Shown in pieces: positions 10,564 to 63,012 of a DNA stretch of 64,000 bases. A program made the translations under genes and the position numbers. The notes below the pieces were generated by a model. That model was not told the origin of the DNA and ran no database searches. It saw only the letters and a list, made by a program, of their open reading frames with translations. The stretch spans positions 8,399,003-8,463,002 of the forward strand of contig JAJEKV010000006.1 in the NCBI GenBank assembly GCA_021234155.1. The letters are read 5' to 3'. The first letter of the stretch is position 1. The number at the start of each line of letters is the position of its first letter. The DNA comes from Isoetes taiwanensis. Its lineage: Eukaryota; Streptophyta; Lycopodiopsida; Isoetales; Isoetaceae.

Positions 10564-11433
10564 TTGCGGTGAATTGCTTACAAAAGTCATCACCTACTAC
10601 CGGGAAAATGGCTTGATTAATGGACTCAAGCTCCCCAACTTCGGATGAATATCTTACCATGCTTCAATATCTTTGATGATACTTTCTCCTTCCTAGAAGT
10701 TTGATTTGGCCAATATTATTTTGCTTCCTTAAAGTCATACATCAATTTTCAATTTTTTGCTTACGGTATTTATCTTAATGTCAATAAGAGCTTAATTATT
10801 GGTGATCTTCCTCATCGGCGGGTTCTTGATATTAATGTTCTCCCCGTGGGTCAAGCCACTAAGCTTTTAGGGATGCCTCTATCTATAAATCGAGCTTGAA
10901 AGGGCTTTGGGATCCTATCCTTGAGAGAATTAAGAAAAATTTGAATAATTATGGGAATTATCTCACTCTAGCGGTAGAACTATCATTGCAAATTCGGTTC
11001 TTGCTAGCTCTCATGTCTACTTCTCAACTGCTCTAATTGCTCCTAAGTGCATTTATCTTGAGCTCCAAAAGATCATCGAAACTTTATTTGGAAAGGCGGT
11101 CATTTGGTCAATTGGAGCTCTATCGCAAGACTAAAATAGCGGTGGTCTTGGGCGTAAGGACCTTTTTCTTCAAGCTCAATCTCTTGCGAGGGTAAATTTG
11201 TTTTGGAAAGCCATTTATGGTAGCCAATCTCCTCGCTCATAAGTTCATCGATCTTTGGATCAATCTTAGTCATCCTTACGGTCACCCATCTGTTCATCAT
11301 CACATTTGCCAAATTCAGCCTTTACTCATCCGAAATCTGCTCCTAATATCTCTCCTTTGATGAATAATCTGATTAAGGCTTGTAATTCTATTTCCCCACT
11401 TTCAATTCATTTCATCGATCATTTGCACTCGAT
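10564..11433 (+). pseudogene. LINE ORF2 RT palm and thumb, frame broken repeatedly
   Basis: Translation in changing frames still gives the RT sequence: VAVNCL, ENGLINGLKLPN, EYLTMLQY followed by a DDT box near 10660-10680, then TIIANSVLASSHVYFSTALI-like and LGRKDLFLQAQSLARVN-like segments. Each break lies at or next to a CGG where the protein expects CTG or CTGG (for example near 10568, 10972, 10995 and 11137). Either the element has decayed here or the consensus sequence is wrong at these sites. Confidence 0.75.
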
Positions 11434-12036
11434 ATGCCTATTTTACGGAATCCTATCTTTCTTAATCATAATTCCAATGTTACGGCGATCAAACACCCGA
11501 GATTTGCAAGAAATGGCATGATCTTTGGTCTGTTCTACATTAAAGATCTTTTCAATGGTGATAGGCTGATTTCTTGGACTGCTCTTAAAAATATCATCAG
11601 AGGTACATCTTCTAACAGGAAAGTATATCTCCTTATCAAGCCTTATTTGGCAAATCTTTCTCCTAACTCAGGAAAAGGTGATTGGTCTCTCAATGGCAAG
11701 TTTGATTATAAAGTGAGAGATATTTATAAGTGCCTTTCCCATGATCCTACTAATATTAAGGCAATGACCAAATGGGGTATCAATCTTACTCAGCTAAGAG
11801 ATCTCTTCAAGAATGTCTGGGACTCTTACTGCCCTCCCAAAATTTCCTACTGTATATGGCTTATTGCTAATGGCAGTTTAAGTAACTTACAATCCCTTTC
11901 CAAAATATATCCTAATATCATGCCAGACTGCCCTTTGGGATGCAATGATATTGAAGATATGTGTCACATCTTTAGCTGCACCAAACTGAATAGTTTTTGG
12001 AATTGGATTCTTTGGAAAATTTGGAATTCATTATGA
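11434..12036 (+). CDS. LINE ORF2 C-terminal domain with zf-RVT region
   Basis: A 200-codon open frame with the typical plant LINE C-terminus: a KGDWSLNGKFDYKVRDIYK segment, PPKISYCIWLIANGSLSN, then a cysteine/histidine cluster (CPLGCNDIEDMCHIFSC) matching the reverse-transcriptase zinc-binding region. It ends 7 bp before the next frame. It is continuous in sense with ORF2 upstream and is not a separate gene. Confidence 0.85.
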   Translation: MPILRNPIFLNHNSNVTAIKHPRFARNGMIFGLFYIKDLFNGDRLISWTALKNIIRGTSSNRKVYLLIKPYLANLSPNSGKGDWSLNGKFDYKVRDIYKCLSHDPTNIKAMTKWGINLTQLRDLFKNVWDSYCPPKISYCIWLIANGSLSNLQSLSKIYPNIMPDCPLGCNDIEDMCHIFSCTKLNSFWNWILWKIWNSL

Positions 12037-12043
12037 TGGAAAT

Positions 12044-12337
12044 TTGCTTTCCTTGATCCAAAATGGTGACACTTTTAATAATACTGTTATTTTCATTGCC
12101 CTTTGGAATATTTGGAAGGCTAGGAATCGTGTGTTACATGGGAAAAATAGACCTTCAGTTTTCTGGATCAAAATGAACTTCCAATTTGACTTTGAAACTA
12201 TTGCTACTGCTCATAAGAATAAAGTTGGAACTAATCATGACAGGAAATGGGAGCTTCATGGAGCTTACAGGGGATTTTATAATTTATTTGCTTCCAATTT
12301 AAACATTGTAGATTCTAATGTTTTATTTTTTCGATGA
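12044..12337 (+). CDS. LINE ORF2 extreme C-terminus
   Basis: A 97-codon frame with FIALWNIWKARNRVLHGK, the motif that follows the zinc-binding region in plant LINEs. A one-base shift near 12036 separates it from the previous frame. The TGA at 12335 is probably the true end of ORF2. Confidence 0.8.
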   Translation: MLSLIQNGDTFNNTVIFIALWNIWKARNRVLHGKNRPSVFWIKMNFQFDFETIATAHKNKVGTNHDRKWELHGAYRGFYNLFASNLNIVDSNVLFFR

Positions 12338-13169
12338 AACTAGAATATCTTGACTTCTGCGTGGGGAGGGAGCAAGAAAATTCAATGATACTTCGCCATT
12401 CAGCCCGGCACCAGTGGATTGATCATGAAAAATGATATTGCAACATCTATGGAGTCGTTTCTTATGAAAAGGCGACGCATGAGATATCTGAAGGAAAGTG
12501 AAGACCTTTGGGCATCTACCTTTTGCGGGGAAGTGGTTGGATCCTTTGCCTTTGGGCTTTCTTGGCCAATCATCACTTCATTCCACTTTGAAAGGCGGTG
12601 ACAAGATCTGAGAACCATGTACTACAATCATAAACTCATTTGCTGATCTGTATGGCTCGCTAGCGATATTCTTCGGAGGACAAAGATAAATTCAGGCTCT
12701 TTTACTCCAATAATTGGGGCCCAAACCAATACTTCTTTGGATCGACTGACCCTTTCAATGCCTACTTCAAAGATTGCTTCTTCACTGTTCATGGAATCCC
12801 TCTTCCATAGCCATCTGTTAATCACACCCTTGCTCTTATCTAATCTTGATCTATTTATGTTTCGGGAAGGATTTCCTTTTTGCAAGTTTTTGCAGCTCAA
12901 GCTCAAAGTGGCCTCCCTCATCAACTGAATTCAGATCTCTTGGACCTATTCACATTGAGGATCATTTTCTTACTGGCTTATTAGCATTTGCCACCTCTAC
13001 TGCGAATTTCTGGTTAGGCTTGTTATTCTTGAGCTCATATTCATAGTATGATGCTCTCAAGTGTTCTGTTACTTTTTCATGTGCTGCCTTATAAAGCACA
13101 GACATGCTATGTACCTGAGATTTTATAATTAATGGTAAAACTGACTCTTGCTATCAAAAAAAAAAAAAA
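12338..13169 (-). other. LINE/retroelement junction with an exon-like remnant
   Basis: On the minus strand a segment from about 13125 to 12975 reads openly after a pyrimidine tract and AG (SMSVLYKAAHEKVTEHLRAS, then YYEYELKNNKPNQKFAVEVA), stopping near 12970. More open pieces follow to 12628. It looks like an exon of a host gene with a 3' splice acceptor, but I do not recognise it. A run of 14 A at 13156-13169 adjoins the next element. Confidence 0.35.
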
Positions 13170-13244
13170 CCTTTAAAACCTGCATCAGCAGACTTCAATC
13201 TAATAAAAACCTTTGCAAGGTAGATATTAGATCCAATTGGCAGC

Positions 13245-13276
13245 CCTGATCATAATCAGGTACCATTATGATCAGG
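13245..13276. repeat. 12 bp perfect hairpin within the direct repeat
   Basis: CCTGATCATAAT at 13245-13256 and ATTATGATCAGG at 13265-13276 form a perfect stem with an 8 nt loop. The same hairpin is conserved at 19715-19746 with one loop change. It lies near the 3' end of the element on the coding strand and could mark a transcript end or a structural signal. Confidence 0.8.
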
Positions 13277-14693
13277 CCATGACCAGATAACCATTTACAT
13301 TAAGTTTACAAATGGCATCCATAATAGAATTTTAACAAAAACTGTAAGAATGCATACAAGTTGTTTCATATATATTTAGATAAATCCAGTTAACATAATA
13401 CTCATAGATATTGTTTTCCAAATGGAATTCACAACTCAACTAAAATTCTTACCAAAGTCAGTTGTTTACAAAAATGAATAGATTACCAAGCTTCTTTCAT
13501 GTTTATGTTGCAGATCTGGATCAAGGTGATCCATGCAAAACAGTAACATACTTTTGTAGTAGAATACACTAACAAAGAGTAAGGAAACCTGTTACCTGCA
13601 TCCACAAACCAGAACAAGCATTAGAATGGTTGGACAAGTAAGGGATAGCAGGTGTCATGGGTTTCCTTAAGGTCATCCCCTTCACCTTGCTAGCATTCAA
13701 TTGACAAATATGTAGCAAAGCAAAATAAAGAAACCTAGATTAAGTAGTTAACAATATCCTAAAAATTATAACCACTTTTCGTATGATCTTCTAGGCTTCC
13801 TTACTGTGAGCAATTTCCAGCTCGCAGAATAAATCTTAACCTCTATGTCTATTTTAAATCATTTTCCATATCTGTCTCTGTGCTCAATTTCTCAGTCAGC
13901 TTAATGCCCAAGGCATATTACCAATATCATGCCTGGGTTATATCACTATAATCAAAAGGCAAAGCCCATACTTATTCTAAGAACCATGTTTCATTTTATA
14001 AACATAAGTAATTTCAGGATCATGCATATCAGATCAGATATGTGCATTCTACCCCACCATTTCCCATACTTCTTTAAATGCCATTCATATGCATATTTTT
14101 ACCTTGTACTCTTGTATCTCATATGTCTATGCAATTTCAGCATCAAGCCTTACAGATCTACTTTATATTACCATTTCCCTTGCTACCTTTCAGATCTATA
14201 ATGCATATTCTTACCATGCTCAGTTATACCCCATACGCCAGTGCAAATTCTGAATCTACTTTATACATTAACATTGCTTATGATTTTCAGATCTGTCCTG
14301 CATATTACTAGCAGACCTGATTTGCCTACTAACTATGGCAAGGAACCATGCAATATCCTGCATCTACTTAAAGTCTACAGAATCAGGACGTTTTTTGGCC
14401 ATATGGATAAATCTAATCTAAGATTTATACTTCTAATTACCTCTGATTTATGCATTCTTCATCAACTTTTCCATGCTTCCTTTCATAAAATCCAGGTTAA
14501 TCATGCATATTATCTTGCATACTAAATTAGCAGAATATATCAGCAGTAATTCTATAGTTAGACTACCCATAATGGCAAGGCACTAAGCATAAGAAATACT
14601 ATATCTAATTTAAGTTCTTACTCATAAAATCTTTCTTAGTCATATGAACAGATCAAATCTAAGATTAATATTTACAAATGCATCTCATCAAAC

Positions 14694-15206
14694 CTTAGTA
14701 GAGCGCTCCTTGCTCTCTTGCTTCTCCTTAAGATTTGAAGAATTTCCTGGATCTTGCAATTGCTCAGTATCTCCAACAGCCTCATGTCTGCTGTTAGCAG
14801 AGCTGCCCATATCCATCTCCATAGAAGCCCGATTATTCTTAGCTTGCTCAGGCTTACTAAATCCATCAGCCTCCTCTTTATCATTACCAGCCCCTTCCAT
14901 CAGATTGCTGTTATTCCCAGCATTGCAGGCTTGAACACCATTCCTAATGACATAAGTACGAAATTGGAAAATCTTCTTAGTATTTCTGTTATCCCTGTTT
15001 TTCTCCTCTGCCAGTCTCTTGCGTGTTGCAAGATTCAAGTCACCTTTCTTCCTCACCATTTTCGGAGCAGGGCTTCTCTCCCTGCTCACAAAATCCACAA
15101 TAAAAGCTGCTCGCCTCAGTTCTCCTTCAGTTCTTTTATAGTCTAATTTTAAGGTGTGTTCATAACACCGACAGTACCTATCAACCACGTCCATACCTTT
15201 TTGCAC
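14694..15206 (-). CDS. basic/acidic leader exon in the left direct repeat (intact copy)
   Basis: The 172-codon frame has a basic stretch (KMVRKKGDLNLATRKRLAEE) and then a hydrophilic, asparagine- and glutamate-rich tail. After codon 171 (AAG, ending at 14694) the sequence is GTTTGATGAG, a usable 5' splice site in phase 0. The copy of this exon in the right (5') repeat lies upstream of the internal frames, whose acceptors are also in phase 0. I infer that it is exon 1 of the element's protein(s), possibly a nucleic-acid-binding leader. In this left copy there is no element reading frame downstream, so here it is an orphan exon. Confidence 0.55.
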
Positions 15207-15518
15207 TTTCTGTTATGCAATCACCTTCAGCCGATGCCACTTCTTGTGATCTTCAGATGCATCACGATGCTCCGCTGTTATCTCCAGCTCATATCTGCCC
15301 TAAAACATATCTCATTATTTCCACGAACCATATTTTCCTTAACCTAATTTTTCAGTTTAACAATATGCCCTTTTATATATACTATGCCATATGCTTCAAT
15401 ATTCCTATCCCCATAAGGGTTACAACAACAATACACCCATCTTCTCAACATGTGTTACTGGCCTGCATCAAAGCCCATCTACTTAAGAGTACACTTGTTA
15501 TTTATGATCTTTTATAAT

Positions 15519-15668
15519 AAAAAACCCTGCCTCCTACCGTAGGTCAGGGGGGCCAATTTCTAATTTAAAAACTCTCTGCTTTAGAGAGTGGCAATGGTGC
15601 CAGCAAGGAGAGTAGAGCCTTGCTTCACCGCCAAGGCCCTACCCTACCTATGCTTTCCTATTAGTTAA
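15519..15668 (-). other. internal 3' untranslated stretch of the retroelement
   Basis: About 150 bp between the RT stop and the left direct repeat. It holds a perfect 7 bp hairpin (ACTCTCT-GCTTT-AGAGAGT) near 15570 and no coding content. Confidence 0.6.
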
Positions 15669-17741
15669 TTACATTAAGCTTTTCAAAACTCTGATCATGT
15701 CAGTTATTGAATATAAAATACCAGGAAACTCCTCCTTTTCTAATATGTTCAAAACCATACCTGATATTTTGGCTTTGTGAAAACCATTTTTGTTGAAAGC
15801 TTCAATAAGCCCATAAATATCCTTGGCTGCATTCCATGCTTGAGAATTGGCATATATATATGGCATAATTTGAGATATGATAACTCTAGACGCCTGCCCA
15901 AATGGTCTGCAGCTGTCTGCTCTAATGAATCTGTGAACAATAAAAGGTAGTTTGCTCCTCTTGTCATATCTTGTGATGTTGAATATTCCCATAGTGTGAT
16001 CATTAACCTGTATGGTAATGTTTAGAAAATTACATTTCATACCTATTGCCGAATCATCATTGTCTCTATATGCATACTCGGTTTCATCCTTTATTCCCAG
16101 ATATTTCAAGTTGTATATTGTATGCTCAGCTCCATCAGTTAAAAATTCCATAACTTTTCCACCATTAATGATATTTAGATCATCAATATACCGTGCAGCA
16201 TGCTGAAATCTGTATACATCAGACATTCTACCATGATATGCCAATTTCAATATAAATCTGAGTTCAAACCATGCCAAATAAAGGTTGCACCATGCAGGGC
16301 TGCATGCAAACCCCATGGGTATTCCTTTCGTTTGTTTCCAGATATTATTTCCACTTTGCAAATAACAATTGCATAGAAGCCAAGTATTCATGTCTTTAAA
16401 TAGGTCTTTTGTAATCAGTCTCCAACTGACATGCTCTTTGTTTTTCCAGGATTTAACCCATTTGACCATGATATTATCATTTTTGCACTTAATCATCATG
16501 TCAAAATATCTTTTTTCTTCTCGCATATGCTGCCAAATCATGTCCGATATTTCATTACAAACCTCAACAATGCCTTCATCTCCATATAAGGGAATGTTCT
16601 CATAACATTTCATTATATCAGCTGAAAAAACACTATGTACTTTGTTCGGGAGGTTCAACGTCACATCATATGATGAATTGACCATCCAGCATGCCCTAAT
16701 CCTTTTGGTGCTCCAGATTCTGTATCTTGCTGTCATCTTGTAGCATATATCAGGCCAGGTTTCAATAAAATTGTTTAGGATGCTTGTGACTATGGCAGCA
16801 ATGTCCGTGTACAATGTATTGTGAGCATTGGTCAGCCACCGGTACTCCCCTTTGTGCGCTTTAAATGTTGCCATAAGGTATGGTAAATTTTGGTTCTGCC
16901 CTTGCATGTCACCAATAAAATTTTTTATATCTCTACTGCATTCAGCTTTTATGCATTCAGGATTCTTAGAACTTTTTTCAAAGTCTTCACTATCCAGTCT
17001 AATTTTAGCCATATCACTGATATGCTTGGGACATATGAATGCAGCATTATTTGCTGCTTTATCCAGCCCTGCAACATACAGATTTCTGTTCAACCACATA
17101 ACATTTCTCATGACCTCTTCATCTAACCACAAGAACCTTTTATTGGGAGCAGCTTTCTTTAGCTCCACAATCTCAGTATGAGCCATCCTTTGGAGCATTG
17201 TGCTGATTTCCTGTATATCCCTATCAGTAAGATCTAAAAGTTCATACTTCTGTACTCTGAAGAATTGTTGACACATTTCATCAAACTCTTCCATAAAAGC
17301 CTGAATGCTGAGACTATGATCAGGGATATGATTTAATCCATATGAGAATGCCTTCCTCAGTTTGGTATTATGGATAATCTCTAGGTTGGTAGTTCGAATG
17401 TGCCCAATAGATTTATCAATAAATTTCTTCAAATTTGGGTTACTGCAAGGGCATTTATTAGCAGACCCATCCGCAAACACCAAGTATGGTTTGTACACAA
17501 CATCTTTGATCTGGTTAATGTACTTCCATGCAAATACTGTTTTATCAATTAATTCAGTTCCTCTTTCTTGCATTACTTCATAGAAGACCGTATGAAAAAT
17601 CCTCTTAATACTGAGTGCATCTAGTATTTTAGACAAAAATGTCATATGCACTATTTTTTTATCCTTGTCTGCTTCAATAGTGCACAGTTTTTTATACCTG
17701 TTGCCATCCATAACAATGGTTCTGGTCTTGATTTTTTCAGC
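15669..17741 (-). CDS. reverse transcriptase of the long-repeat retroelement
   Basis: The frame is open from 17741, right behind TTTTTTGTAG, and includes an internal ATG at 17711 (680 codons from there). Residues are counted from that Met. A conserved N-terminal module has CPCSNPNLKKFIDKSIGHI and NLEIIHNTKLRKAF near 83-120. RT motif A is FSADIMKCYENIP near 366, motif B GIPMGFACSPAWCN near 462, and the catalytic box is RYIDDLNIIN near 506. A downstream YDKRSKLPF and GQASRVIISQIMPY region is typical of one widespread RT family with an NCAPL-type motif B. The motifs look intact, so this may be catalytically competent. The family is Penelope-like by layout; formal assignment needs a phylogeny. 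Confidence 0.85.
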   Translation of the reverse strand, partial: AEKIKTRTIVMDGNRYKKLCTIEADKDKKIVHMTFLSKILDALSIKRIFHTVFYEVMQERGTELIDKTVFAWKYINQIKDVVYKPYLVFADGSANKCPCSNPNLKKFIDKSIGHIRTTNLEIIHNTKLRKAFSYGLNHIPDHSLSIQAFMEEFDEMCQQFFRVQKYELLDLTDRDIQEISTMLQRMAHTEIVELKKAAPNKRFLWLDEEVMRNVMWLNRNLYVAGLDKAANNAAFICPKHISDMAKIRLDSEDFEKSSKNPECIKAECSRDIKNFIGDMQGQNQNLPYLMATFKAHKGEYRWLTNAHNTLYTDIAAIVTSILNNFIETWPDICYKMTARYRIWSTKRIRACWMVNSSYDVTLNLPNKVHSVFSADIMKCYENIPLYGDEGIVEVCNEISDMIWQHMREEKRYFDMMIKCKNDNIMVKWVKSWKNKEHVSWRLITKDLFKDMNTWLLCNCYLQSGNNIWKQTKGIPMGFACSPAWCNLYLAWFELRFILKLAYHGRMSDVYRFQHAARYIDDLNIINGGKVMEFLTDGAEHTIYNLKYLGIKDETEYAYRDNDDSAIGMKCNFLNITIQVNDHTMGIFNITRYDKRSKLPFIVHRFIRADSCRPFGQASRVIISQIMPYIYANSQAWNAAKDIYGLIEAFNKNGFHKAKISGMVLNILEKEEFPGILYSITDMIRVLKSLM

Positions 17742-17925
17742 CTACAAAAAACATCTTAGATCAGGATCTATGCTATAGAAAATTTTTCTATAATTAAAGC
17801 AAATTATATTACTGATTTATGGCCAAATGGCATATGACAAAATGTTTTACAGTTTTATATATTTCTTAGCACATAGGGTAAACTGTTAAAACATCCCATG
17901 GCTAGATTTCAGCAAAAAGGTAAAT

Positions 17926-19515
17926 TCATTGAGAGTCTGGAACAAATTCCATCTTAGAAGAAGTGCCATCTTCAAGAGAGATGATCTCATTACCCCCTTT
18001 TGTGATAGAATAATCTTCCATGTTCCTATTATTTTTATCTTTTGGAGGACCCTGTACCTTTTCCATCACCATACTTGGATCATAAGTAATCCTAGGTGGC
18101 ATCCTAGGCGTGATCATCTTGACATTTTCATTGGAGTTATTGGAACTTTTTGAGTACTTCTTATCCCAAAACTCAGATCTGTTTGCAGCATTTTTTGATT
18201 TCAGAAAACTGAGTGGTCTAATCATTTTCTCAGCAATGTCTGCCATTTTATTATTGCCATAAAGAACCTTCAGATTTTTATCAGGATAATTGGCAAAGGA
18301 TAATGCCATGTTGATAAGATTGCTTCTGACCTCCAGATAGGATATGTAGGCCAGAACAGCTTCCCTCATTTCTTTGTTGAGCATTTTGGAAATGATGACC
18401 ATTTTGGACATGGGGGATGCACCAGGGTAGAGCATTTCCATATGGTTAATCATAAACCATATGCCCTGATCAAACCATATAATACCGCATTTGCATTCAT
18501 CATCCCTGTTTTTTCTGAAGTTAAACTTGTTCTTCTCACATAAGCATTTAAAATAAGGGCAATGTGTCCTCCATATTCTTTTGAGGTAATAGTCATCCCT
18601 GGTGATATTTGGAAATGCCATATGGCCTTTCTGCCCAATTTCAATTGGAGAATTGACAATACATTTCTGCTCAAAAAAATCCATTCTGAAAGGTAGATTT
18701 ACCTCAAGATTTTCAAAAGTCTTCTCCAATTTTAATGCAGCATATTTGGCAGCCCTGATTTCCTCTTTAGAAATACCTGCTAAAGCAACCCAAGTATCCA
18801 TGTCTATAGGTGCCAAAGCACCAAAATTTTGACTTTTCCATATGGCGTGGTCATGCAATACAGCATAACATTCAACAGTTTGCTCAATAATTACTGGGAA
18901 GCATGTGGAATTGGATAATGTCAGTTCTGGTACTTTATCATTTCCCACTTCATCAGCCATGTCATTTTGTACGACCAATTCTTCCTTTTTGTATCCAATA
19001 CTCATCATATCTTCATCATTAAGATCCATGTCAGAAAAAAGGCAATCAGTCATGTCCTTTTTGGCCTTACTAGCTTGCTGTTTAGAGTCCTCATTTTTAC
19101 CAAAGGTAAGAGGTGAAATGTTATTGGCTTTTTCCAATGCCATGATGCCAATCATGAATTTTTTAGCTGCTTCATCTTCAAGGCATGTCCTCTGATAAAG
19201 GATTTGACTCATATTATTATATGTATCAGCCAAAATATCCCTACATTTAGAGAATTCAAAGTTTTCTTTCTTCATCATTTGGAATCTTGCAAACCAGCCA
19301 CTAAAACCCAAGTAGGAAACTGGGGATAGTCTTTTATCAAGAAGATTAGACTCTTTAAACGTGATGTAAGAGTGAACATCCTTACTTCTGATGCAACCAA
19401 TAATGGTTTGTACTGCAAAATTCGGACTGCTGATTTTGCACTTATCATATTCAAGCTGTATAAGCTCCTTGATCCATTGATTATATATGTCTTGTCCATC
19501 AGCAATTATATCATC
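17926..19515 (-). CDS. ORF1-like protein of the retroelement
   Basis: The frame is open for 530 codons from 19515, which follows TTTTTTTCATAG (a splice-acceptor-like sequence whose TAG is also an in-frame stop). The first ATG is at 19311 (461 codons). Near the middle is a cysteine cluster (HCPYFKCLCEKNKFNFRK, then DDECKC) that could bind zinc. The C-terminus is charged and rich in S, N and K. No known domain was recognised. It lies upstream of RT on the same strand with 184 bp between them. The phase-0 acceptor suits joining to the exon in the right direct repeat (donor at 21167/21166, intron about 1.65 kb). Confidence 0.65.
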   Translation of the reverse strand, partial: DDIIADGQDIYNQWIKELIQLEYDKCKISSPNFAVQTIIGCIRSKDVHSYITFKESNLLDKRLSPVSYLGFSGWFARFQMMKKENFEFSKCRDILADTYNNMSQILYQRTCLEDEAAKKFMIGIMALEKANNISPLTFGKNEDSKQQASKAKKDMTDCLFSDMDLNDEDMMSIGYKKEELVVQNDMADEVGNDKVPELTLSNSTCFPVIIEQTVECYAVLHDHAIWKSQNFGALAPIDMDTWVALAGISKEEIRAAKYAALKLEKTFENLEVNLPFRMDFFEQKCIVNSPIEIGQKGHMAFPNITRDDYYLKRIWRTHCPYFKCLCEKNKFNFRKNRDDECKCGIIWFDQGIWFMINHMEMLYPGASPMSKMVIISKMLNKEMREAVLAYISYLEVRSNLINMALSFANYPDKNLKVLYGNNKMADIAEKMIRPLSFLKSKNAANRSEFWDKKYSKSSNNSNENVKMITPRMPPRITYDPSMVMEKVQGPPKDKNNRNMEDYSITKGGNEIISLEDGTSSKMEFVPDSQ

Positions 19516-19639
19516 CTATGAAAAAAATCCATCATATTAGTACTTTATCTACTGGAGTCATACTAAACGTACCTGAGATATCTCATTATCATGATCATGG
19601 TTGTTAGTATAACTAACAAACTGAAATAAGATAAAAAAA

Positions 19640-21989
19640 CCTTTAAAACCTGCATCAGCAGACTTCAATCTAATAAAAACCTTTGCAAGGTAGATATTAG
19701 ATCCAATTGGCAGCCCTGATCATAATCAGGTACAATTATGATCAGGCCATGACCAGATAACCATTTACATTAAGTTTACAAATGGCATCCATAATAGAAT
19801 TTTAACAAAAACTGTAAGAATGCATACAAGTTGTTTCATATATATTTAGATAAATCCAGTTAACATAATACTCATAGATATTGTTTTCCAAATGGAATTC
19901 ACAACTCAACTAAAATTCTTACCAAAGTCAGTTGTTTACAAAAATGAATAGATTACCAAGCTTCTTTCATGTTTATGTTGCAGATCTGGATCAAGGTGAT
20001 CCATGCAAAACAGTAACATACTTTTGTAGTAGAATACACTAACAAAGAGTAAGGAAACCCATTACACGCATCCACAAACCCGGAACAAGCATTAGAATGG
20101 TTGGACAAGTAAGGGATAGCAGGTGTCATGGGTTTCCTTAAGGTCACCCCCCTTCACCTTGCTAGCATTCAATTGACAAATATGTAGCAAAGCAAAATAA
20201 AGAAACCTAGATTAAGTAGTTAACAATATCCTAAAAATTATAACCACTTTTCGTATGATCTTCTAGGCTTCCTTACTGTGAGCAATTTCCAGCTCGCAGA
20301 ATAAATCTTAACCTCTATGTCTATTTTAAATCATTTTCCATATCTGTCTCTGTGCTCAATTTCTCAGTCAGCTTAATGCCCAAGGCATATTACCAATATC
20401 ATGCCTGGGTTATATCACTATAATCAAAAGGCAAAGCCCATACTTATTCTAAGAACCATGTTTCATTTTATAAACATAAGTAATTTCAGGATCATGCATA
20501 TCAGATCAGATATGTGCATTCTACCCCACCATTTCCCATACTTCTTTAAATGCCATTCATATGCATATTTTTACCTTGTACTCTTGTATCTCATATGTCT
20601 ATGCAATTTCAGCATCAAGCCTTACAGATCTACTTTATATTACCATTTCCCTTGCTACCTTTCAGATCTATAATGCATATTCTTACCATGCTCAGTTATA
20701 CCCCATACGCCAGTGCAAATTCTGAATCTACTTTATACATTAACATTGCTTATGATTTTCAGATCGTCTCCGCATATTACTAGCGGACCTGATTTGCCTA
20801 CTAACTATGGCAAGGAACCATGCAATATCCTGCATCTACTTAAAGTCTACAGAATCAGGACGTTTTTTGGCCATATGGATAAATCTAATCTAAGATTTAT
20901 ACTTCTAATTACCTCTGATTTATGCATTCTTCATCAACTTTTCCATGCTTCCTTTCATAAAATCCAGGTTAATCATGCATATTATCTTGCATACTAAATT
21001 AGCGAGAATATATCAGCAGTAATTCTATAGTTAGACTACCCATAATGGCAAGGCACTAAGCATAAGAAATACTATATCTAATTTAAGTTCTTACTCATAA
21101 AATCTTTCTTAGTCATATGAACAGATCAAATCTAAGATTAATATTTACAAATGCATCTCATCAAACCTTAGTAGAGCTCCTTGCTCTCTTGCTTCTCCTT
21201 AAGATTTGAAGAATTTCCGGATCTTGCAATTGCTCAAGATCTCCAATCAAATACCTCATGTGCTGTTAGCAGAGTGCCCATATCCATCTCCATAGAAGCC
21301 CGATTATTCTTAGCTTGCTCAGCTTACTAAATCCATCAGCCTCCTCTTTATCATTACCAGCCCCTTCCATCGATTGTTTGTTATTCCCGGCATTGCAGGC
21401 TTGAACACCATTCCTAATGATGTATAACGAAATTGGAAAATCTTCTTAGTATTTCACGCTATCCCCATTTTCTCTCCTCGCGGTCTCTTGCGTGTTGCAA
21501 GATTCAAGTCACCTTTCTTCCTCACCATTTTGGACGGGGGCTTCTCTCCCCGCTCACAAAATCCACAATAAAAGCTGCTTCGCCTCGGTTCTCCTTCGGT
21601 TCTTTTATAGTCTAATTTTAAGGTGTGTTCATAACACAAGCAAGTACCTATCAACCACGCCCATACCTTTTTGCACTTTCGTTATGCAATCACCTTCAGC
21701 CGATGATGCCACTTCTTGTGATATGGGGATGCATCACGATGTTCATTTGTTATCTCCGGCTCATATCTGCCCTAAAACATATCTCATTATTTCCACGAAC
21801 CATATTTTCCTTAACCTAATTTTTCAGTTTAACAATATGCCCTTTTATATATACTATGCCATATGCTTCAATATTCCTATCCCCATAAGGGTTACAACAA
21901 CAATACACCCATCTTCTCAACATGTGTTACTGGCCTGCATCAAAGCCCATCTACTTAAGAGTACACTTGTTATTTATGATCTTTTATAA
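19640..21989 (-). repeat. long direct repeat, right copy (5' end of element)
   Basis: Second copy of the 2.35 kb repeat, upstream of the coding region on the minus strand. From about 20.76 kb, and most densely from 21.17 to 21.76 kb, it differs from the left copy mainly where the left has CAG or CTG, with CGG, CCG or CG here. Small deletions of 1-2 bases occur at the same sites. It ends in TTTATA followed by a run of A and then unrelated sequence from about 22000. Confidence 0.95.
21167..21680 (-). pseudogene. leader exon in the right direct repeat (frameshifted as read)
   Basis: Corresponds to the intact 172-codon frame of the left repeat and keeps the segments HTLKLDYKRTEGE and MVRKKGDLNLATRKR and the GTTTGATGAG donor at 21166. 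The reading frame is broken several times, each time at a site where the left copy has CAG or CTG. By position this is the copy that should serve the internal frames, so whether the breaks are real decides whether the element could be active. Confidence 0.55.
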
Positions 21990-22107
21990 AAAAAAAAGTA
22001 TTGGGCTGGTCAAATGGGAAACATCGTATTGTTGCTTAACAGTACACCAGCAAAGAATGCAAAGCCATGATTTGCAGCAACACCACTGCAGAGGCTATGT
22101 GGTTGGT

Positions 22108-31183: not shown

Positions 31184-31700
31184 TTCTAATATAATGGATT
31201 TTTAAATCTGCCTTCACACTATAATCCATTATTAGTACATAACAATATTGGTTAGAATGAGTTCACACATAATTTCTAGAGTAACATAATAGTTCCAGCA
31301 TGACTTTTAAAACATATGCTCAGTTAAAGGTTTTTCTTGAAATGCTATAAAACACATATACTATCTACTATTAAATTTTCATTATTGAACCTGATAGCAA
31401 TATATCTTAATGGAATTATACACTATCTTCTTCTTCTTCTTCTTCGGGGCGGGGGTTTTTTAATCCTGACAGTAATATGCTTGCTGCTCTCTTTTTGTTT
31501 GGGTCCCATAAACCAATCGGTCTTCGTGGGCGATAAAAAATCTATTCTATTCTATATTATTTGTGTTAAAGTAAATACAACATATTTTGTGGATAGTTGC
31601 AGCTAACAAGGTGCATAAAAACCAAGTGTAGCAACAAAGAGAATAAAGGACAAAATAAAACCCAATAGTTAAATAATGATTAAAAGCTTAAAAACGATTT

Positions 31701-53834: not shown

Positions 53835-56800
53835 GATAGATGAGACCTGCTTGAATCCGACCCACAAAACCACGCCCCCTGTTATAAGATCTGCCACCAT
53901 TTTTTATGAAGAAGCTTCTCTCCTGCAACGACGATCTCTTTAAATGGTAGCTTAATCTTATACATATTCTTGCTAATCCCTGTTGTTGCAGATTTGCAAG
54001 CCCTGTTTCGTGCCCTAAAATGCTATCCACGAGGCTTGCATGTTCAGCCCCTAAAATAAAAAGAGGGATTTTGTTGTGAGCCCTTGGATGTTGGACCATT
54101 GGGAAAAAAAAGCTAAATCAACGACTAAGAAATGGTGCACTCTAGATGTACGCATTAGTACGTCCATTCAAATACGCCACGAAATCTTAGGAAAACCTTT
54201 GTGAAAAGCGTACAAAAACACAAAGAATACCCCCTGTTGTTATGCTACATATTATTGCTGGACCATTAACTATCACCAAAAATGCCTGGAATCATGAATG
54301 AGCTGGTGGGGGAGGCGCCCCTGAATCACACTCTAGCGTGAACTCAAATTGGGGAGCCACACACGCCTGGTGCGCATTCCATTGAAGTTTCTCCTTTGCC
54401 AGCTGGAGATTTTGTGTCCCTCCCTTCCCCTCTCTCTCCAATGCCTTTTCTTCGATCTCGGTGAAGGTGCGGAAATTTATTGCCATATCGACCCGTTATT
54501 GTTGAGCTATGTTTGGGGATGGCCACGAGCATGGGGTTTTATGCTGAACAATTACATGGACCTCATTAATCATCTAGTAAGCCTTGAACTGGAGAATGCT
54601 CATATGAGGATCAAAATTGCAGAGCTCGAGCGCACTTAGATTGCCATTCTGCAGGAGCCCAAATCCCAATAGCTTCACAACATAATTTTCCAATTTCTAT
54701 TGTGTCTACTTCTGTTGTGCCAGCAGATGAACAAAAGAAGAATATTCCAAGATCTTTATAAATAGATGAATGGACGGATGGTGAAGGTGGAACCAACATG
54801 TTTTGATATTTTGAAAAACTCTTGTTATATAAATGGGCTGGTCTACGGGCCCCAATTTTGTAAAAGTAATGAAAAAGGCTCTTTCATCATCATTACGAAG
54901 CAACTCTTAGTGTAACAGTTTCTTATGAATGAATGAAAGCAACTTAGTCTATATCCATTGAAGCAATGAAGTGCATAGCTTTTTCAAACGATTATTGGCC
55001 ATGCAACAAAGGTTCCAACGCTTTCTCTGGGTGTCTCCACCAGGATGCCTTCTGGGTAATGCTTCATCATTAAAAAGACTAGTGATTATTAAAATCTTTA
55101 CATGATATCTTCCCAGTCAAACTCCGGGTCGATCGATTCTATCTTGCAACTTCCTACCCTCCTTTTCAAGTTTACCGTCAACATGTAACATTTCTCTCCA
55201 ACGCTGTCGAATTCAGTAAGATAATGAAATTGGATAACAACAGTAGTTTTGGGATTAAAGGAACAACAGAACTTCGTGAATCTGCTCGATATGGCTGAGG
55301 CGCAGATTATCATCTTTTCCAATTCTTGGTATCGGTGGTTAAATATAAAGAAAGGCTAATTGCACGGCATTTTATTGGCGAATGAAACTAAAATTTGATT
55401 CCTTTGCAATGATTACACAGGTTGTTACACGTTTAGCTGTTGGTTCAATCATGTGCCATCGATTGAGCGAAATCGTGGCTGGGGCCATCGATCTCAAGTC
55501 GATCCACGGCCTAAACTTAAGCGCCAACATTAAGCTATACTTCACGGGCGTCGATAGAAATTAAATCCTCCCGTCGATTCTTGAGCAAAATCTATATAAC
55601 CTTTGAATTTTTTTTTTTTTGCTTTCTAATCGCAGATATTCGATGTGTGACCTTGTATTATTTCTTCGGAGGCATTTGAAGAACCAAATTCTTCTCCAAA
55701 CTTCGGGCATAGCTCGCCGCGACTCTTGATTCCAATCGAGAGCTACGAGGAAGTGAAAGAGGTGAGTTTATGTTTTTCTATTTCTCCGTGTAGAAATCTT
55801 CTGTGTGCATAAATGTTTTGTATGTGTGGTAGAGCTGGTCGCTCTGTATAATTGATGTATTGTTATCTGTGTAGCTGCTCTGTAGTGGATCTATTTAGCT
55901 GTTGGATTCGTTTTGCTGCTGTGGTCCTATTTAGCTGCGGGACCCATTTAGCTGTGTGTTAGAATCCTCCAGTCGTTGTGTTCCTTTTGATGTTTTTCTT
56001 TTCTTTTGTCTCCTTTTGCTTTAGAGTTATTAGCTTAAGTTTTCTAGTTGTCATCTAAGGCATATACAAGACCCTTAATGCTAGCATGAAATCACCTTAG
56101 GCTTAGTTTTTTTTTGTCTGTCCTGTTTGATATATCTAAAGTGCCCCTTAGAATGAGTTAGCTCACTCATTGTAAGTGGTAGCACTTTAGATTAGCACAT
56201 CTGACATGACAAAATGGTAACTTTCAAACTCTTTGTGGGTAATCTGAGCATGTAATTCTCAACCCTTATCTAGTGCTCCTAACTGCCCACAAGCTTTCAA
56301 GCTGTAAAGGAGTGTGACAGAATTGGGAGCTTCCCCATCTGTTCAAGACATTCTAATACTTCCCCATGAAGACCTGTTTTCACGTAGCATGCAATAAGAA
56401 TTGAAATGAATTGTCTTTTATCGTCCACGGAGACCAGATGGTCTATGGGACCCAAGACAAGTGAACAAAGAACAACGACAGATTAGTATCCAGGATTAAA
56501 AAACACTGCCCCGAAAGGAGAAAACCTCAAAGAGAATTCCATGATATGGAGGGAAAATTTCAAATATACCCCTCAACTTTACAAATATTCCGAAAATACC
56601 CTTAGAAATAGGGTATTTAGCTTAAATGGCAATAACTTTCTTGTGATCATCCAACTTAAAAAGTGCACTTCATTAAACTTGTAGATAAGAGTAGGACAAT
56701 TTAATAGCATTAGAATCGTCTAAAATGGAGTTGGAATCTTTAAGTTATAGTGTTTTAAGTGTTGGAATCTTCAAGTTATAGTGTTTTAAGTAAGTGTTAT

Positions 56801-57879: not shown

Positions 57880-58452
57880 TTAAACTGGGCTTCCATAAAG
57901 AACCACTGTTTTTAATTGTATTTCAAAAAAGAGTTTCCTTAGTTGCCAATGTTCACAATTGTTGATTTTGCACTGATTCATCATACTGTAAAACGCTCTG
58001 AGACCACCTGATACACGTTTCTGAGCTGCCAATGTCCACTTATAATTATTTGACACTTCAATTCCCAAATACTTATAATTCATGACCTGCTCAAGCGGAA
58101 CGCCATCTACATAAAATATTGTATTATCCTGGCCTCCTAGCACCATTATCTTTGATTTATCAGGATTAACCCTCATGCTTTTTTCTTCACAAAAGCCACA
58201 TAACACATCTAGATGGCGTTGCAGTCCAGTTGGATTCTTTGAAATTAACACAATATCATCAGTAAAAAGCAAAAGCTGTAAAATATACCTTCCCAAATGG
58301 ACTCCTAAACCCCCAAGTCTCGTCATCCAATTTTCTAGTTCATCTATGAACAATCCAAAAAGAGTTGGAGAGGAGGGACAACCTTGCTTTACCCCAATCG
58401 TATTCTGCACTTTTTCTGGCCCTGTAAATGGGAAAGATATTTCTACTAGCAC
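57880..58452 (-). CDS. RT palm domain of LINE copy 2
   Basis: 190 codons: motif B region GVKQGCPSSPTLFGLFIDEL, catalytic box LFTDDIVLIS near residue 63, then NPDKSKIMV and LGIEVSNNYKW. The N-terminal half (endonuclease and fingers) is missing. The frame ends at a stop (GSPV*) 10 bp before the next frame; the stop may be real or a single error. Confidence 0.85.
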   Translation of the reverse strand: MLVEISFPFTGPEKVQNTIGVKQGCPSSPTLFGLFIDELENWMTRLGGLGVHLGRYILQLLLFTDDIVLISKNPTGLQRHLDVLCGFCEEKSMRVNPDKSKIMVLGGQDNTIFYVDGVPLEQVMNYKYLGIEVSNNYKWTLAAQKRVSGGLRAFYSMMNQCKINNCEHWQLRKLFFEIQLKTVVLYGSPV

Positions 58453-58484
58453 CCTGTCATATAAGCACGCAACTGCACGATGAA

Positions 58485-58904
58485 GTTCCTATGGAGCTTG
58501 TAGCATTTCCAACCTGCAAGCATAATAATCCTTTGGCTCTTCCTCAGGGTCCTGCATATGAAGGAGGGGAATCTAGATTCTCTCCTTTAGATGATTTCCC
58601 ACGAGGCCATGTTTCTGATATTTCTGCACCTATTGTTGCTACTGCGGGTCAGATTGCATCTTCTGATAATGCTTCTACTCCCCCTTTTCCTCCACCTTCA
58701 GCCTCTGCGCCTGCCTTACTTTGAAGAGCAGTTGCCACTGCTAACAGAAATACATGCGAGCGTTTTGGTGAGTGGATTAAGAAAGACATGCCTTCAACAG
58801 TTCTTCTGGTCGTGTCTCTGCTGCTATTGATATGATGGTTCAGAATAATAGAAAAGATATTGGTAGTTTGCTTGGTTAGCTTCAAGCAAAGGAGAGTCAA
58901 CTTG
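58485..58904 (+). pseudogene. left remnant of plus-strand LINE copy 4 (ORF1 region)
   Basis: An open plus-strand segment (DEVPMELVAFPTCKHNNPLA, then STPPFPPPSASAPALL) and, after a shift, ATANRNTCERFGEWIKKDMP and VSAAIDMMVQNNRKDIGSLL. It looks like the N-terminal part of an L1 ORF1 that resumes after 61803 beyond the minus-strand LINE. The left edge is truncated at the junction with LINE copy 2. Confidence 0.45.
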
Positions 58905-61803
58905 ATTTTTTTTTTTTTTGAAGAACTGTGTCAGCAATATATTAAAAGAATGGTAATGTTACAAAGCAAGTGAGGAGGAAGGAGAACTGCCCCAAAGAGA
59001 CAGTGATACCTCGACACTCCACAACAACTGCAACTCTACTGCTGTACAAACTGACCATCACCATCTACCACACCCAAGAAGTCCCGCCAAATGGAAAACT
59101 TCCGCTCTACTAATCCAGGGAACACCAAAAGCTTTGAAATAGCTTGTACCGAGTCGAGGAATCGAGGAGAGATTTTGCGGTCGCTGAATCCCCGAAAGAT
59201 CCACAACCGCCGCTTCCAAATCAACCACACCAACCAAGCCACGACGGATGCAAGGCTTGCTGCCGTCTGGCGCCAAACACCGGGATACACATGGGCGGCA
59301 ATTGTTGGCTATTCAATCTCACGAACAGAGCCCGACCCAATCCGGGCAACCCGCAAATGAGGGCATAAAACCAAACAATGCTCCACAGTCTCACGATGAA
59401 GGCCACAACAAGGGCAAAGAGGGCTCACACCGGCCTAAAGCCCGACTCACAAGGACATTCACCCACGGGGCGGTGCACCACCGCCACATAAGCACCCGAA
59501 CCCGGTGGGGGAAGTGAGCTCCATGTCCACGTCCAAACCGGCGCCATCGAGAACCCGGAAGCTCGCGAGACCACTTGCACCTGGGGGGGTGAGTGTCATG
59601 AATAGCCAACACCCGGTAACAAGACCGCACAAAACAAGAAGATACAACATCCGGATGAACCTTCCAAAACCGCACCACCACATCACCCGAGGGACTATAG
59701 GTATATGTAGCGGAATACTCCCGCCACTTGTTCCCGTGATAGCCCTTGGCCGTCGCCCTTCAAAGAAAAGCGAGCTCGAAAGAACTCCCACGGCTAGTCT
59801 GACCATCCCAATACCAATCCTCCAAGGTGAGCACAAAGGCTTCGCCTCCAACGGGCTCGCGTCCCGAGCATGCACTGGCGCCAAGGGCAAGGGCAAATAC
59901 GCAGGAGGTAGAGGAACCCACAAGAAAGGAGAAGAGTGGTGATAAACCGAGGCATAATCTAGTTGAAAAGAGCACACGACGTGATCCCAAGCCCGCAACA
60001 CCCCTGATGAGAAAAGGGGGACGATGTGGGAAAGGCGAGGAGACCATACAACAGTGCCCAGGGCAACTCTACATGCACAGACGACTTTCCAAATGCCACA
60101 CAATGGCGAAGAGATTGCCACAATAGTGCCGCACCAGGAGAAGATGCTCCATCCTGCAGAGCCTGGAGAATGCTCCAAATAAACTTAGAGACCAACACCT
60201 TACTATGCAGTGCCAAATCCAGAATGGCCAAGCCCCCATCCTCCGGGGGGGAGACACTTCCACCAAGCCACTTTAACAACCGCCCCTTCATCATCCCGCC
60301 CCACACAAAATTTCGAACAATCTTATCCAAAGCCTGTATCTTACCCTCAGGAGCTAACATCGCAGAATCTTTGTATACACATGAGTGCTACAAAATCGCG
60401 ACTTGGCAATAGTGATCCTACCTGCCATGGACAACTTGCTACCCTTCCACCAATTGAGGTGTTTCTGCAACCCCTGCAAAATCTCATCCCACACCCTCCC
60501 CATGGAAACATCCCCTCCAAAGGGAATACCCAACAGCTTAGTACACACATTACCTGGAAGCACCTTCCAGGGAATAGAGCCAAACAAGGGGGGCGGAGTC
60601 AATCGGGCCCATAATGCGGGCATTTACCCCAATGAGAAGAATGCACGAGGCCAAGGAGAAAGTATCCAGCAAACCCTTCACATTCCGCAAATTCCTCTCT
60701 TCTGCCACCAAGAAGAGAAAAGTGTCATCGGCGAACTGGTTAATAATCTGCTGACTACCATCCTGCATCCGAAGCCCATCCACCACCCCCTCCTCCACTT
60801 TGCAGCCAAAACAAGCGAGGCAAGGTGCCTCCGCCACAATCGTAAACAAAAATGGTGCCAAAGGGCACCCCGGCGACTACCCCCGCCCTAAGGAGAAAAA
60901 GGCGGAGGGTTCACCACGGCACACCACCGTAGCCCGTGCTGACCTATGCGACTTCATGATCGTTGTCTCGTAAAGCGTGGACCACGCCCAGCGCTAACAT
61001 CATGGCGGCACAAGAACTCCCAAGCGGACACTATCATAAGCTTTGGCAAAGTCAAGCTTAAGATAGGCAATGCTTGACTGTTCTCCTGGCCCAATAAAGG
61101 CCCTCATAAAGCTGCGGCAACATTAGTCAAAATGTTCCTCCGGGAACAAACCCGGTACACCTTACTAATGGAAGAAGTCAACACAGGCTTCAACTTCTCG
61201 GCGGGGCTTTCGCTAATAATCTTGTACCGAGAGGGACAACAAGGATATAGGCCTCAATCATTAATAGTAGAAGGCTGCTTAACCTTAGGAATCAAGGAAA
61301 TGCATGCGGTATTCAAGATCCTATCCATGTGAGAAGACTGCAAAGCAACTCAAGATACACACAGTAATGCAGACTCACCAGCCCACTCCCAATAAGTCCG
61401 AAGAACTCCACGGGGATGCCATCCAGCCGGGACATTTATCCTTGGCCATGCACATACATGCCTCCGCTAAATCCTCTGCGGAGAGCTCTGCTCCAAGCTC
61501 TCCGTTGGTGAGGCAAAATAGATGGCTTAACAGCCCCCAAAACAAGCTCCTGCATCTCTGCTCATAGGGAAGAGTGCATTGCGCAAAAACCCCGAGAAAT
61601 GAGCATGCACATACTGCAGCTTCAGCGGGATCCTCCAAAGTCCGGCCATCAGGCAAAGCAAGGGACGCCATAGATGCTGCATATCGCCGCTGCCTAGCTG
61701 CTCTGAAGAACACCGACGAACTTGTATCCCCCTCCTTCAACCAGGTAAGGGCTGCCTTCACACGCGCCTCAAACGGATTTTTCCTGTGGATGTCTTCTAT
61801 CAA
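58905..61803 (-). mobile_element. 5'-truncated L1 LINE (copy 3) nested in copy 4
   Basis: Minus strand. It ends in a run of 14 A (T at 58906-58919) and its 5' edge lies near 61803 inside ORF2. In order: the connector and RT start (RVKAALTWLKEGDTSSSVFF at 61375-61803), the catalytic box FADDTFLF at about 60735, MVEVSPPRRMG / LKWLGGSVSPPEDGGLAILD near 60270, and the C-terminal WLVWLIWKRRLWIFRGF at 59036-59290. All frames are heavily shifted. The G+C content is higher than in neighbours and CGG/CCG are common, as in other stretches suspected of CWG error. No target duplication could be matched. Confidence 0.85.
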
Positions 61804-62741
61804 ACGGAGGTGTGTAAAGATACTCTAACAGCATCTGGCTACAATGTTGTGCAGATTGATCATGATTTGCACAAGAGATGTATCAGTAACTTGATGTCAT
61901 TTGGTGTGGTGGGCCATTATACCGGTGCATATCTAGATATTAGGAAGCTTGGTTACTGGTTCACAGGCCATCTTCACAGGATTGGTCTTCCCGCGTATCG
62001 CACCTTGAAAATGCTTGGCAAGAACTTTTTTTTGGTTATGTTTGATGACGCTATTGTTGTTGATCAATTGGTGGCCCGAGGTGTTGATCCTATGTGGAGT
62101 GATTATTATTATACCAACCTTATTCTCGGCTTCTCACACGCAGGGTATGAGTAATGCTTTAAAGATGCCTTGTTGGTTTTCTATTTTAAATCTTCCACCT
62201 GACCTTCTTGTGTCGGACTTTCTTGTGTGTGTTGCTAATGGTTTGGGTACTCACTTGGCTCATTCTATAGTTGATGATGCTAAGATTTGTGTTTCTCTGC
62301 CTTGTGGCCAAGCTCTGCCTAGTTCATTATCATCAATAGTGGCCATACTGAATGGTCCTCAACTTGCTGATTTGTTTCCCCAACTTGAACTCTTTGCAAA
62401 TTTTTGTGCTAAGCGGGATCGCCCTGCCAATGTTCCTATTTCCTCTTCGCCTCTCACTTCTGCTTCCCCCAGAGCTATACCTCCTCAGTCCACGTCCTCT
62501 AATGATGCAACTGGTAAGGATGTTGATATGCCCTCTGCCTCTAAATATGCAGTCTGCACCAGTTTTTAGTGCTGATGCTAGAGCTAAGTTGCAAAGGATT
62601 CAAGAGCAGCAGGAACGGCGTGAGAGAGCTACAGATGGCTGGACAAAAGTTAATTTGAAGAAAGCTGCCCATAATAAATTTGCTCAGTCTGCCTCTCAGG
62701 CAGCACATCCTAGTGGAGACGGACATGGTAGTGCACAATAA
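61804..62741 (+). pseudogene. ORF1 of L1 LINE copy 4
   Basis: Plus strand: TLTASGYNVVQIDHDLHKRC, GYWFTGHLHRIGLPAYRTLK, KNFFLVMFDDAIVVDQLVAR (61786-62154), then in another frame LNLPPDLLVSDFLVCVANGL and a serine/proline-rich linker (to 62569), then RAKLQRIQEQQERRERATDG and WTKVNLKKAAHNKFAQSASQ to a stop at 62741. This is the DUF4283-like layout of plant L1 ORF1, with frameshifts at about 62150 and 62560. Confidence 0.7.
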
Positions 62742-63012
62742 CATGCCATCACTCCTCTATCAGAAGCTGAGATACTCTGTGGAGGGCCAGAGCAGAAAAG
62801 AGGCTCTCCCTTGCCACAATCTGCACATAACATGGAGAGGTTGGAGCAGAGCGGAGGCTCCCCTCTGCCAATGGGTCTAGGACACAATGGAAGGGTGGAA
62901 TAGAGAAGAGGCTTCCCCTTGCCACTTATTCGCACACGGTGGGCAGACCTCTCAGATGCAGTTAATCTTCTAGGGGTCACTGAGATGGATGTGGAGCATC
63001 CTCAACTGCCCA
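62742..63012 (+). repeat. ORF1-ORF2 spacer with degenerate 60 bp repeats
   Basis: Three or four copies of a unit with GGAGCAGA-GAGGCTCCCC-TTGCCA, period about 58-62 bp, at 62780-62930. It lies between the LINE ORFs. Confidence 0.6.

Follow-up and report, generated by a model that had tools for sequence, protein, structure and literature searches.

Penelope-like elements (PLEs) of the Naiad/Chlamys clade combine a reverse transcriptase (RT) that has an NCAPL-like core, a preceding CxC module and an insertion between motifs A and B with pseudo-long terminal repeats (pseudo-LTRs), tandem units and a microsatellite bias; the bias and the insertion, located in the fingers, are reportedly features of this clade. 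Other PLEs, among them those named Athena and Coprina, have no endonuclease. In the reports on canonical Penelope elements, Poseidon of Anolis (PMC11167929) and an Adineta family (PMC3846280), the pseudo-LTRs carry a putative promoter and coding start, units occur in tandem, a stem loop lies where reverse transcription starts and intron retention is discussed. The same texts describe a C-terminal GIY-YIG endonuclease, pseudo-LTRs of 181-218 bp (Adineta family, PMC3846280), duplications of 8-10 bp in some copies and, for Anolis Poseidon, a hammerhead ribozyme (PMC11167929). Endonuclease-less PLEs are known from the lycophyte Selaginella (Gladyshev & Arkhipova 2007, cited in PMC12477314) and are telomere-associated. 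Here we describe an 8.8 kb retroelement from another lycophyte, Isoetes taiwanensis, which lies in a stretch of 64,000 nucleotides (the window) of contig JAJEKV010000006.1.

The element belongs to a large family of Isoetes retroelements and is one of its young copies. Each of the three subgroups of this family ends in the same simple repeat in which it sits, (T)n, (TA)n or (CA)n. Unlike the Naiad/Chlamys elements, the family has no GIY-YIG that could be found, and it has a separate ORF1, a leader exon in the LTR facing two acceptors, and repeats of 1.7-2.7 kb whose fixed ends equal the target repeat of the subgroup. It shares the lack of an endonuclease with the Selaginella elements, whereas its insertions occupy internal simple repeats (T, TA and CA junctions, no telomere-repeat junctions). 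Probably, though by no means certainly, this is an endonuclease-less element of the Penelope/telomerase side that uses simple-repeat-primed reverse transcription.

Copies were sought in the whole assembly (1,658,258,908 bases in 1,110 sequences), which its description gives as nanopore-based, with 1,658.30 Mb in 204 scaffolds and 909 contigs (PMC8566536). The RT search returned at least 66 matches with 57-100% identity, 51 of the 66 without an internal stop; the true copy number is probably larger, since scoring covered just 65 of 4,771 first-look candidates. For ORF1, 82 matches were listed. The RT is under strong purifying selection, with dN/dS of 0.04-0.09 in all five pairs computed (dS saturated in one pair). 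The earlier note on this DNA, made from the sequence alone, had proposed a search for genome copies; many were found, and in the T subgroup, to which the window element belongs, 12 of the 12 further loci fetched have their own direct repeats (L005 as interrupted pieces only). Two subgroups of relatives are more distant. The RTs of the TA subgroup (L040-L042; L037 is part of the L042 place) are 39-42% identical to the window RT, and those of the CA subgroup (L028-L032) 30-32%. An ORF1 that is 22-31% identical stands upstream of the RT in 3/3 TA and 4/5 CA loci (L029 is without it), and direct repeats flank 3/3 TA and 2/5 CA loci (L030, L031). All subgroups together, 17 of 20 ten-kb loci carry direct repeats. 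Tandem arrangements also occur: L003 and L007 run on into a second unit, another unit's RT precedes L042, and junction matches on C1055 are spaced by 7.7 and 6.5 kb. RG/RGG-rich tails, which are frequent in RNA-binding proteins, are found on the ORF1 proteins of L028, L030, L031 and L032. No relatives were found in viral, bacterial/archaeal, plasmid and phage collections, a profile search of PDB gave no result and PHROGs nothing convincing. The searched literature on plant PLEs, Isoetes, Naiad/Chlamys and microsatellite-directed retroelements, with subscription papers and preprints mostly outside the search, contained no account of the family.

In the T subgroup the LTR begins with a run of T that passes into A/T-rich sequence (mostly TTTTTTATTA), and its last bases are GGTTTTTTT or near. 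Over 13 loci (window included; the left end of L003 and the right ends of L001, L003, L005 and L007 were left out), T-runs of at least 10 abut 12/12 visible left ends (10-28 T) and 9/9 visible right ends (13-24 T), the element's own T6-T8 (T12 in L009) included, while such runs make up 0.1% of the window. At every visible end of this subgroup the flanking run is T on the sense strand. Both ends of L040 (TA subgroup) lie in (TA)n, and TA repeats mark its two LTR borders; the right end of L042 lies in (TA)n and its left end within an array. In the CA subgroup, (CA)n is found at both ends of L030 and at the right end of L031, and GGTGGGC/CACACA follows the RT gene in L029-L031. For L030 and L031 it is the sense strand that reads CA, which, with T in 12 of 12, argues for strand-specific pairing. 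Junction patterns, drawn up from loci already seen, gave 69 genome-wide matches for T (G-rich tract plus T6ATTA, one mismatch), 21 for CA and 10 rows at 8 places for TA, against none for each reversed control.

A paralogous empty site could be identified for the window element. Its joined flanks match C1067:8506339-8506698 on the same contig in one piece (L043; 86% over 338/338 bases). This site reads ...GCTATC, A31, GTATTGGG..., and the filled site has the same flanks with the element between A14 and A10. Only A is gained or lost at the junction, and there is no loss or duplication outside the A-run. The A-tract exists without the element, whether L043 is a duplicate or a haplotype. The definition of ends and of any target duplication, which the earlier note had called for, has yielded simple-repeat ends and, at one empty site, no duplication beyond the A-run. 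Targeting of simple repeats, a leader exon carried by the LTR and the hairpins described below do not appear in that note.

The sense strand of the element is the minus strand of the window, and the order is LTR-ORF1-RT-LTR. Comparison by blastn gives direct repeats of 2,364/2,362 bp with 96.9% identity (13163-15524 vs 19633-21996), within a few bases of the near-identical 2.35 kb repeats first noticed. The RT with GIPMGFACSP and RYIDDLN and the second large protein with a cysteine cluster, also claimed from the sequence, are a 690-aa open reading frame (ORF) and the 529-aa ORF1. Pfam matches the RT to RVT_1 (E=1.3e-7), whereas no model passes the cut-off for either ORF1 or the leader in the LTR; the reported absence of integrase, RNase H, protease, GIY-YIG and recombinase holds, no such model being listed at E up to 1. 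The features are the following.

13156..13169, no strand: A14 (sense T14), made up of the target's poly(A)/(T) tract and the T7 at the 3' terminus of the element itself (sequence; A31 here in the empty site)
13163..15524, minus: 3' terminal direct repeat (LTR/pseudo-LTR), sense start TTTTTTATTAT, end AAAGGTTTTTTT (repeat comparison; the precise edge within the A-runs is not definable)
14694..15059, minus: leader exon copy of the 3' LTR, 122 codons, MVRKKGDLN...ERSTK, with donor AAG/GTTTGA at its end (sequence; splicing inferred)
15525..15554, minus: G-rich tract/imperfect hairpin GGCCCCCCTGACCTACGGTAGGAGGCAGGG, adjoining the 3' LTR (locus comparison)
15669..17741, minus: RT exon, 690 aa, with the CxC module and motifs A (ADIMKCYENIP), B (GIPMGFACSP) and C (RYIDD) (ORF, Pfam, dN/dS)
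Start of the RT exon, minus: candidate phase-0 acceptor TTTTTTGTAG/GCT (sequence)
17926..19515, minus: ORF1 exon, 529 aa, conserved Cys cluster and WFDQ..W..NHM (ORF, alignment)
Start of the ORF1 exon, minus: candidate phase-0 acceptor TTTTTTTCATAG/GAT (sequence)
19601..19619, minus: covarying hairpin TTGTTAGTTATACTAACAA, directly 3' of the 5' LTR (covariation)
19633..21996, minus: 5' terminal direct repeat (LTR/pseudo-LTR), outer edge inside an A10 run (repeat comparison)
21167..21528, minus: leader exon copy of the 5' LTR, whose frame seems to be interrupted by changes of the CAG/CTG type, likely errors of sequencing (sequence)
21988..21997, no strand: A10 (sense T10), composed of the T6 at the 5' end of the element itself and of target tract (sequence; empty site)

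The leader, M.RKKGDLN..TRKR.AEEK or near, has 113-128 codons, lies in the LTR and ends at AAG/GTTT (CAG in L012). With its in-frame donor it is present in at least one LTR of 13/13 T-subgroup loci (in L009, which has two possible donors, the later one was scored), and at many loci it is broken in one LTR only; the window leader had no match in the TA and CA loci. At the 10 loci compared by eye, both ORF1 and the RT open straight after a phase-0 AG acceptor candidate, usually preceded by an ACTAA/CTAAC-like branch point, and neither has a conserved start codon at the exon opening. Because a donor-bearing leader lies in the LTR and a phase-0 acceptor precedes both genes, alternative splicing is likely, the simplest reading of these sequences being that one leader exon is joined to the acceptor of either ORF1 or the RT.

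Two further signals are conserved at the LTR borders. In 11 distinct sequences from 12 T-subgroup loci, an 8-bp hairpin lies directly 3' of the LTR, the usual place of a tRNA primer site; 96.6% of the cells are paired and 4/8 pairs are changed on both sides, a count reached by 23/500 shuffles. The covariation score was reached by 0/500 shuffles and was lost when the partner was slid. By eye, a hairpin can be seen at the same place in L040 and L042 of the TA subgroup, after CTTCAG, and in L030/L031 of the CA subgroup, with a common TTGGCCG loop. Directly 5' of the LTR stands a conserved G-rich tract, GGTAGGAGGCAGGG or near in the T subgroup, GGTAGGAGGTAGG in L040/L041 and GGAGGTGGGC in L030/L031. 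An Rfam scan of 13100-22100 (E<=5) revealed no hammerhead ribozyme or other convincing match, unlike Anolis Poseidon.

The age of the window copy has to be judged with the quality of the assembly in mind. Of the CAG/CTG sites in the 3' LTR of the window element, 28/82 read differently in the 5' LTR, versus 0/54 in the reverse direction and 5/24 and 2/21 for the GAC/GTC control. L006 gives 27/64 vs 3/40 (control 0/29 and 2/31) and L008 12/52 vs 0/40 (control 0/27 in both directions); in L009 and L011 losses occur in both directions. L004 also belongs to the loci with such sites altered mainly in one repeat copy, and changes of this type are seen between the empty and filled sites as well. Since A-to-G at CWG sites is not deamination, these changes are probably systematic nanopore base-calling errors at methylated sites, which break reading frames in repeats of the assembly. 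Much of the LTR-LTR difference being probably of this origin, the insertion may be younger than the 96.9% identity implies.

The affinity of the RT was examined with a profile built from 19 family RTs and run against resident references, those for PLEs (L021-L024) having been found with a Penelope-type probe. In hmmsearch the best match was the Isoetes telomerase RT, TERT (E=2.2e-6; best shuffled control 2.1). With hhalign, the E-values were 3.8e-5 for TERT (60 columns, probability 71%), 9.3e-4 for PLE (38 columns, 23%), 0.0054 for a pair of plasmid group II introns taken together, 0.23 for Gypsy and 0.35 for LINE. The claim that this is no standard plant LTR element or LINE is supported. In a maximum-likelihood (ML) tree of 20 of the 27 core sequences (249 columns; PLE_L023 was dropped from the core alignment), the family is set apart from every reference (SH-aLRT 89.2, UFBoot 90). 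Motifs A and B are 93-99 aa apart in the family versus 60 in the resident PLE, and the CPC motif of the CxC module is conserved in the family RTs. A probe of the NCAPL type, a family that is probably Naiad, matched at least 150 places (of 1,875 candidates; best E 6.9e-21; L026, 41% over query positions 7-195). The matches examined are TA- and CA-subgroup members, and no T-subgroup RT place was seen among those listed. By profile, the RT would therefore belong on the telomerase/Penelope side, for which the tree gives no proof. Of the earlier suggestions, likeness to NCAPL-type RTs stands for TA and CA members, as far as such a probe can tell. The Penelope-like idea agrees with the profile, the pseudo-LTR-like repeats, the likely introns and the lack of a recognisable endonuclease, but the tree that had been recommended, run here with resident references, isolates the family without showing membership. 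In the resident PLE loci, L021 1099-3159 (G000:C957:1436050) and L022-L024, the Penelope-like RT has GTAMGSNFAVVYA and RYIDD. The L021 RT, only remotely similar in sequence to the family, is preceded by a basic ORF, Pfam lists no GIY-YIG in its 685-aa frame, and two copies lie on one contig; it is possibly an endonuclease-less PLE of Isoetes.

Pfam listed no GIY-YIG for the RT, ORF1 and leader of the window element, nor for the RT/ORF1 proteins of L026, L028, L030 and L040, and the GIY-YIG motif is absent from the 19 family RTs, though a strongly diverged domain could escape. Judged by eye among the 150 GIY-YIG matches listed (263 candidates, short frames), none lies within 20 kb of a listed RT/ORF1 place (nearest about 20.4 kb, C985). 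A nearby supply of this nuclease was rejected as well: GIY-YIG exons are present in L033 and L034, where no RT match to the family occurs. These short exons (L033 968-1312, L034 1410-1796) stand beside a second similar exon and are dispersed, with at least 150 genome matches. They could in principle act in trans.

In the proposed mechanism, a transcript would start in the LTR, the leader exon would be spliced to ORF1 or the RT, and the unspliced RNA would serve as template, coated by ORF1 (RG-rich in the relatives). The RT would bind the hairpin, in an arrangement resembling the one that the Anolis PLE protein has close to its internal site of initiation. A free 3' end in a target A-, TG- or TA-run could pair with the run (U, CA or UA) that directly precedes the hairpin, and could so prime cDNA inside the RNA. 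Copying would reach the RNA 5' end and jump to the other LTR copy, or continue round a tandem RNA, so that both repeats are renewed; finally, the simple repeat at the LTR start would anneal to the far side of the target tract. No integrase would be needed, and any duplication would be hidden in the simple repeat. The tract might be opened by breakage where the repeat is unstable, by a gap left in replication or by a nuclease that has stayed hidden. The LTR end, where insertions have their 3' end, borders the conserved hairpin on its 5' side and so fits the published PLE geometry: as described in the Anolis report, initiation is internal, at a stem loop near the ORF start, and the authors suggest a multi-copy RNA (PMC11167929). 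More tentatively, the family may represent a separate retroelement order, LTR-bearing and free of integrase and endonuclease, in which subgroup termini match one simple repeat, targets in pre-existing (A)n, (TA)n or (CA)n are chosen by pairing of template RNA or cDNA ends, and LTRs are renewed by target-primed strand jumps, a mechanism between telomerase, Penelope and retroviral replication.

Several observations weigh against the proposal of an endonuclease-less, simple-repeat-primed element of the Penelope/telomerase side. In hmmsearch the resident PLE alone falls short of significance (E=0.87), hhalign aligns no more than 60 columns with TERT and 38 with PLE, and there are weak bacterial-RT matches (NCBIfam group II RT, 8.3e-5, far below its cut-off; PADLOC CRISPR-associated RT, 6e-6). 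The tree gives no resolution among PLE, TERT, group II, LINE and Gypsy, and the family joins neither PLE nor TERT. Unlike the annealing proposed here, the Anolis initiation site is stated to be not homologous to the cut DNA (PMC11167929). At the 9 visible right ends the flank follows the 3' LTR and no hairpin is present, so that reverse transcription could begin there only on a tandem or circular RNA or with a jump of the strong-stop type. L028, L029 and L032 yielded no LTR pair. The 5' ends of L012 and of the window element have just about 4 T beyond the element's own, and the left flank of L041 is short and merely TA-rich, its right end lying beyond the fetched stretch. The empty site is a single case, perhaps a recent duplication or an uncollapsed haplotype. 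Since the AlphaFold models are too poor (pLDDT 41 for the RT, 36 for ORF1), it is possible that the Cys cluster and WFDQ..W..NHM of ORF1 hide a nuclease.

The main competing explanation, to which we give slightly less than an even chance, is a divergent PLE of the Naiad/Chlamys type that has lost its N-terminal GIY-YIG or has it elsewhere, and whose pseudo-LTRs, tandems and microsatellite bias are otherwise ordinary PLE biology. The CxC module with the NCAPL-type core in TA/CA members (E to 6.9e-21), the insertion between motifs A and B, and the tandem arrays at L003, L007 and C1055 all agree with it. It is opposed by the failure to find GIY-YIG in the RT, ORF1 or leader, or within 20 kb among the 150 matches listed, and by the extra ORF1, the LTR leader exon and the long repeats with fixed ends. 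The terminal simple repeats might instead be made by the element through slippage rather than chosen as targets; each LTR does carry a short copy of the same repeat at the internal junctions, but the A31 tract without an element at the sole empty site, the long tracts at both ends and the strand matched at 12/12 left ends of the T subgroup make this improbable.

A true LTR retrotransposon that has lost integrase, RNase H and protease, with the G-rich tract as polypurine tract, the hairpin in place of the tRNA primer site and ORF1 as gag, is unlikely. It would account for the G-rich tract that immediately precedes the 3' LTR in representatives of each of the three subgroups, for repeats that are near-identical inside each copy and different between copies, and for the RG/RGG tails of ORF1 in CA-subgroup relatives; on the other side, the RT profile has no Gypsy similarity (hhalign E=0.23), there are no TG..CA ends and no integrase model, the termini match the target repeat, and the sole empty site shows no target duplication. 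An ordinary LTR element was rejected on the missing integrase, RNase H and protease models (Pfam), the hairpin at the primer-site position (no systematic tRNA comparison made) and the one empty site without duplication. DIRS was rejected on the absence of a recombinase model in Pfam scans and of inverted repeats of 30 bp or more, and LINE on the hhalign result (E=0.35) and the presence of LTRs. That the locus is an assembly duplication or a single oddity is a negligible prospect: the window alone cannot exclude it, and the assembly has CAG/CTG-type errors, but 12/12 further T-subgroup loci have repeats of their own and the flanks differ between loci. An assembly duplication is ruled out by copies with repeats (17/20 loci), purifying selection on the RT and the empty site.

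Some features of the surroundings may be added. Two overlapping ORFs adjoin the insertion at 11386-12337 (plus strand) and seem to resemble the C-terminal part of a plant LINE. A short dispersed repeat is common to the left flanks of L006, L011 and L012 and to window positions 31443-31561 and 56396-56518. The G+C content of positions 58001-64000 is 0.45-0.51, versus about 0.38 elsewhere in the window.

The family offers a new view of how such elements may pick their targets. One plant genome holds three related subgroups with ends matching three simple repeats; genes are intact, there is an empty site, and RNA structures are conserved at the borders. This is a natural series for the study of pairing between RNA and target. 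With telomerase the family shares the best profile match and the long spacing between motifs A and B, and it is proposed to share the use of a short DNA end paired to RNA as primer; unlike telomerase, it is a mobile element with ORF1 and LTRs, and Pfam lists no telomerase RNA-binding domain in the scanned proteins. The family may thus link telomerase-like priming to LTR formation, and it represents a large plant lineage that annotation based on integrase or endonuclease could miss or misname.

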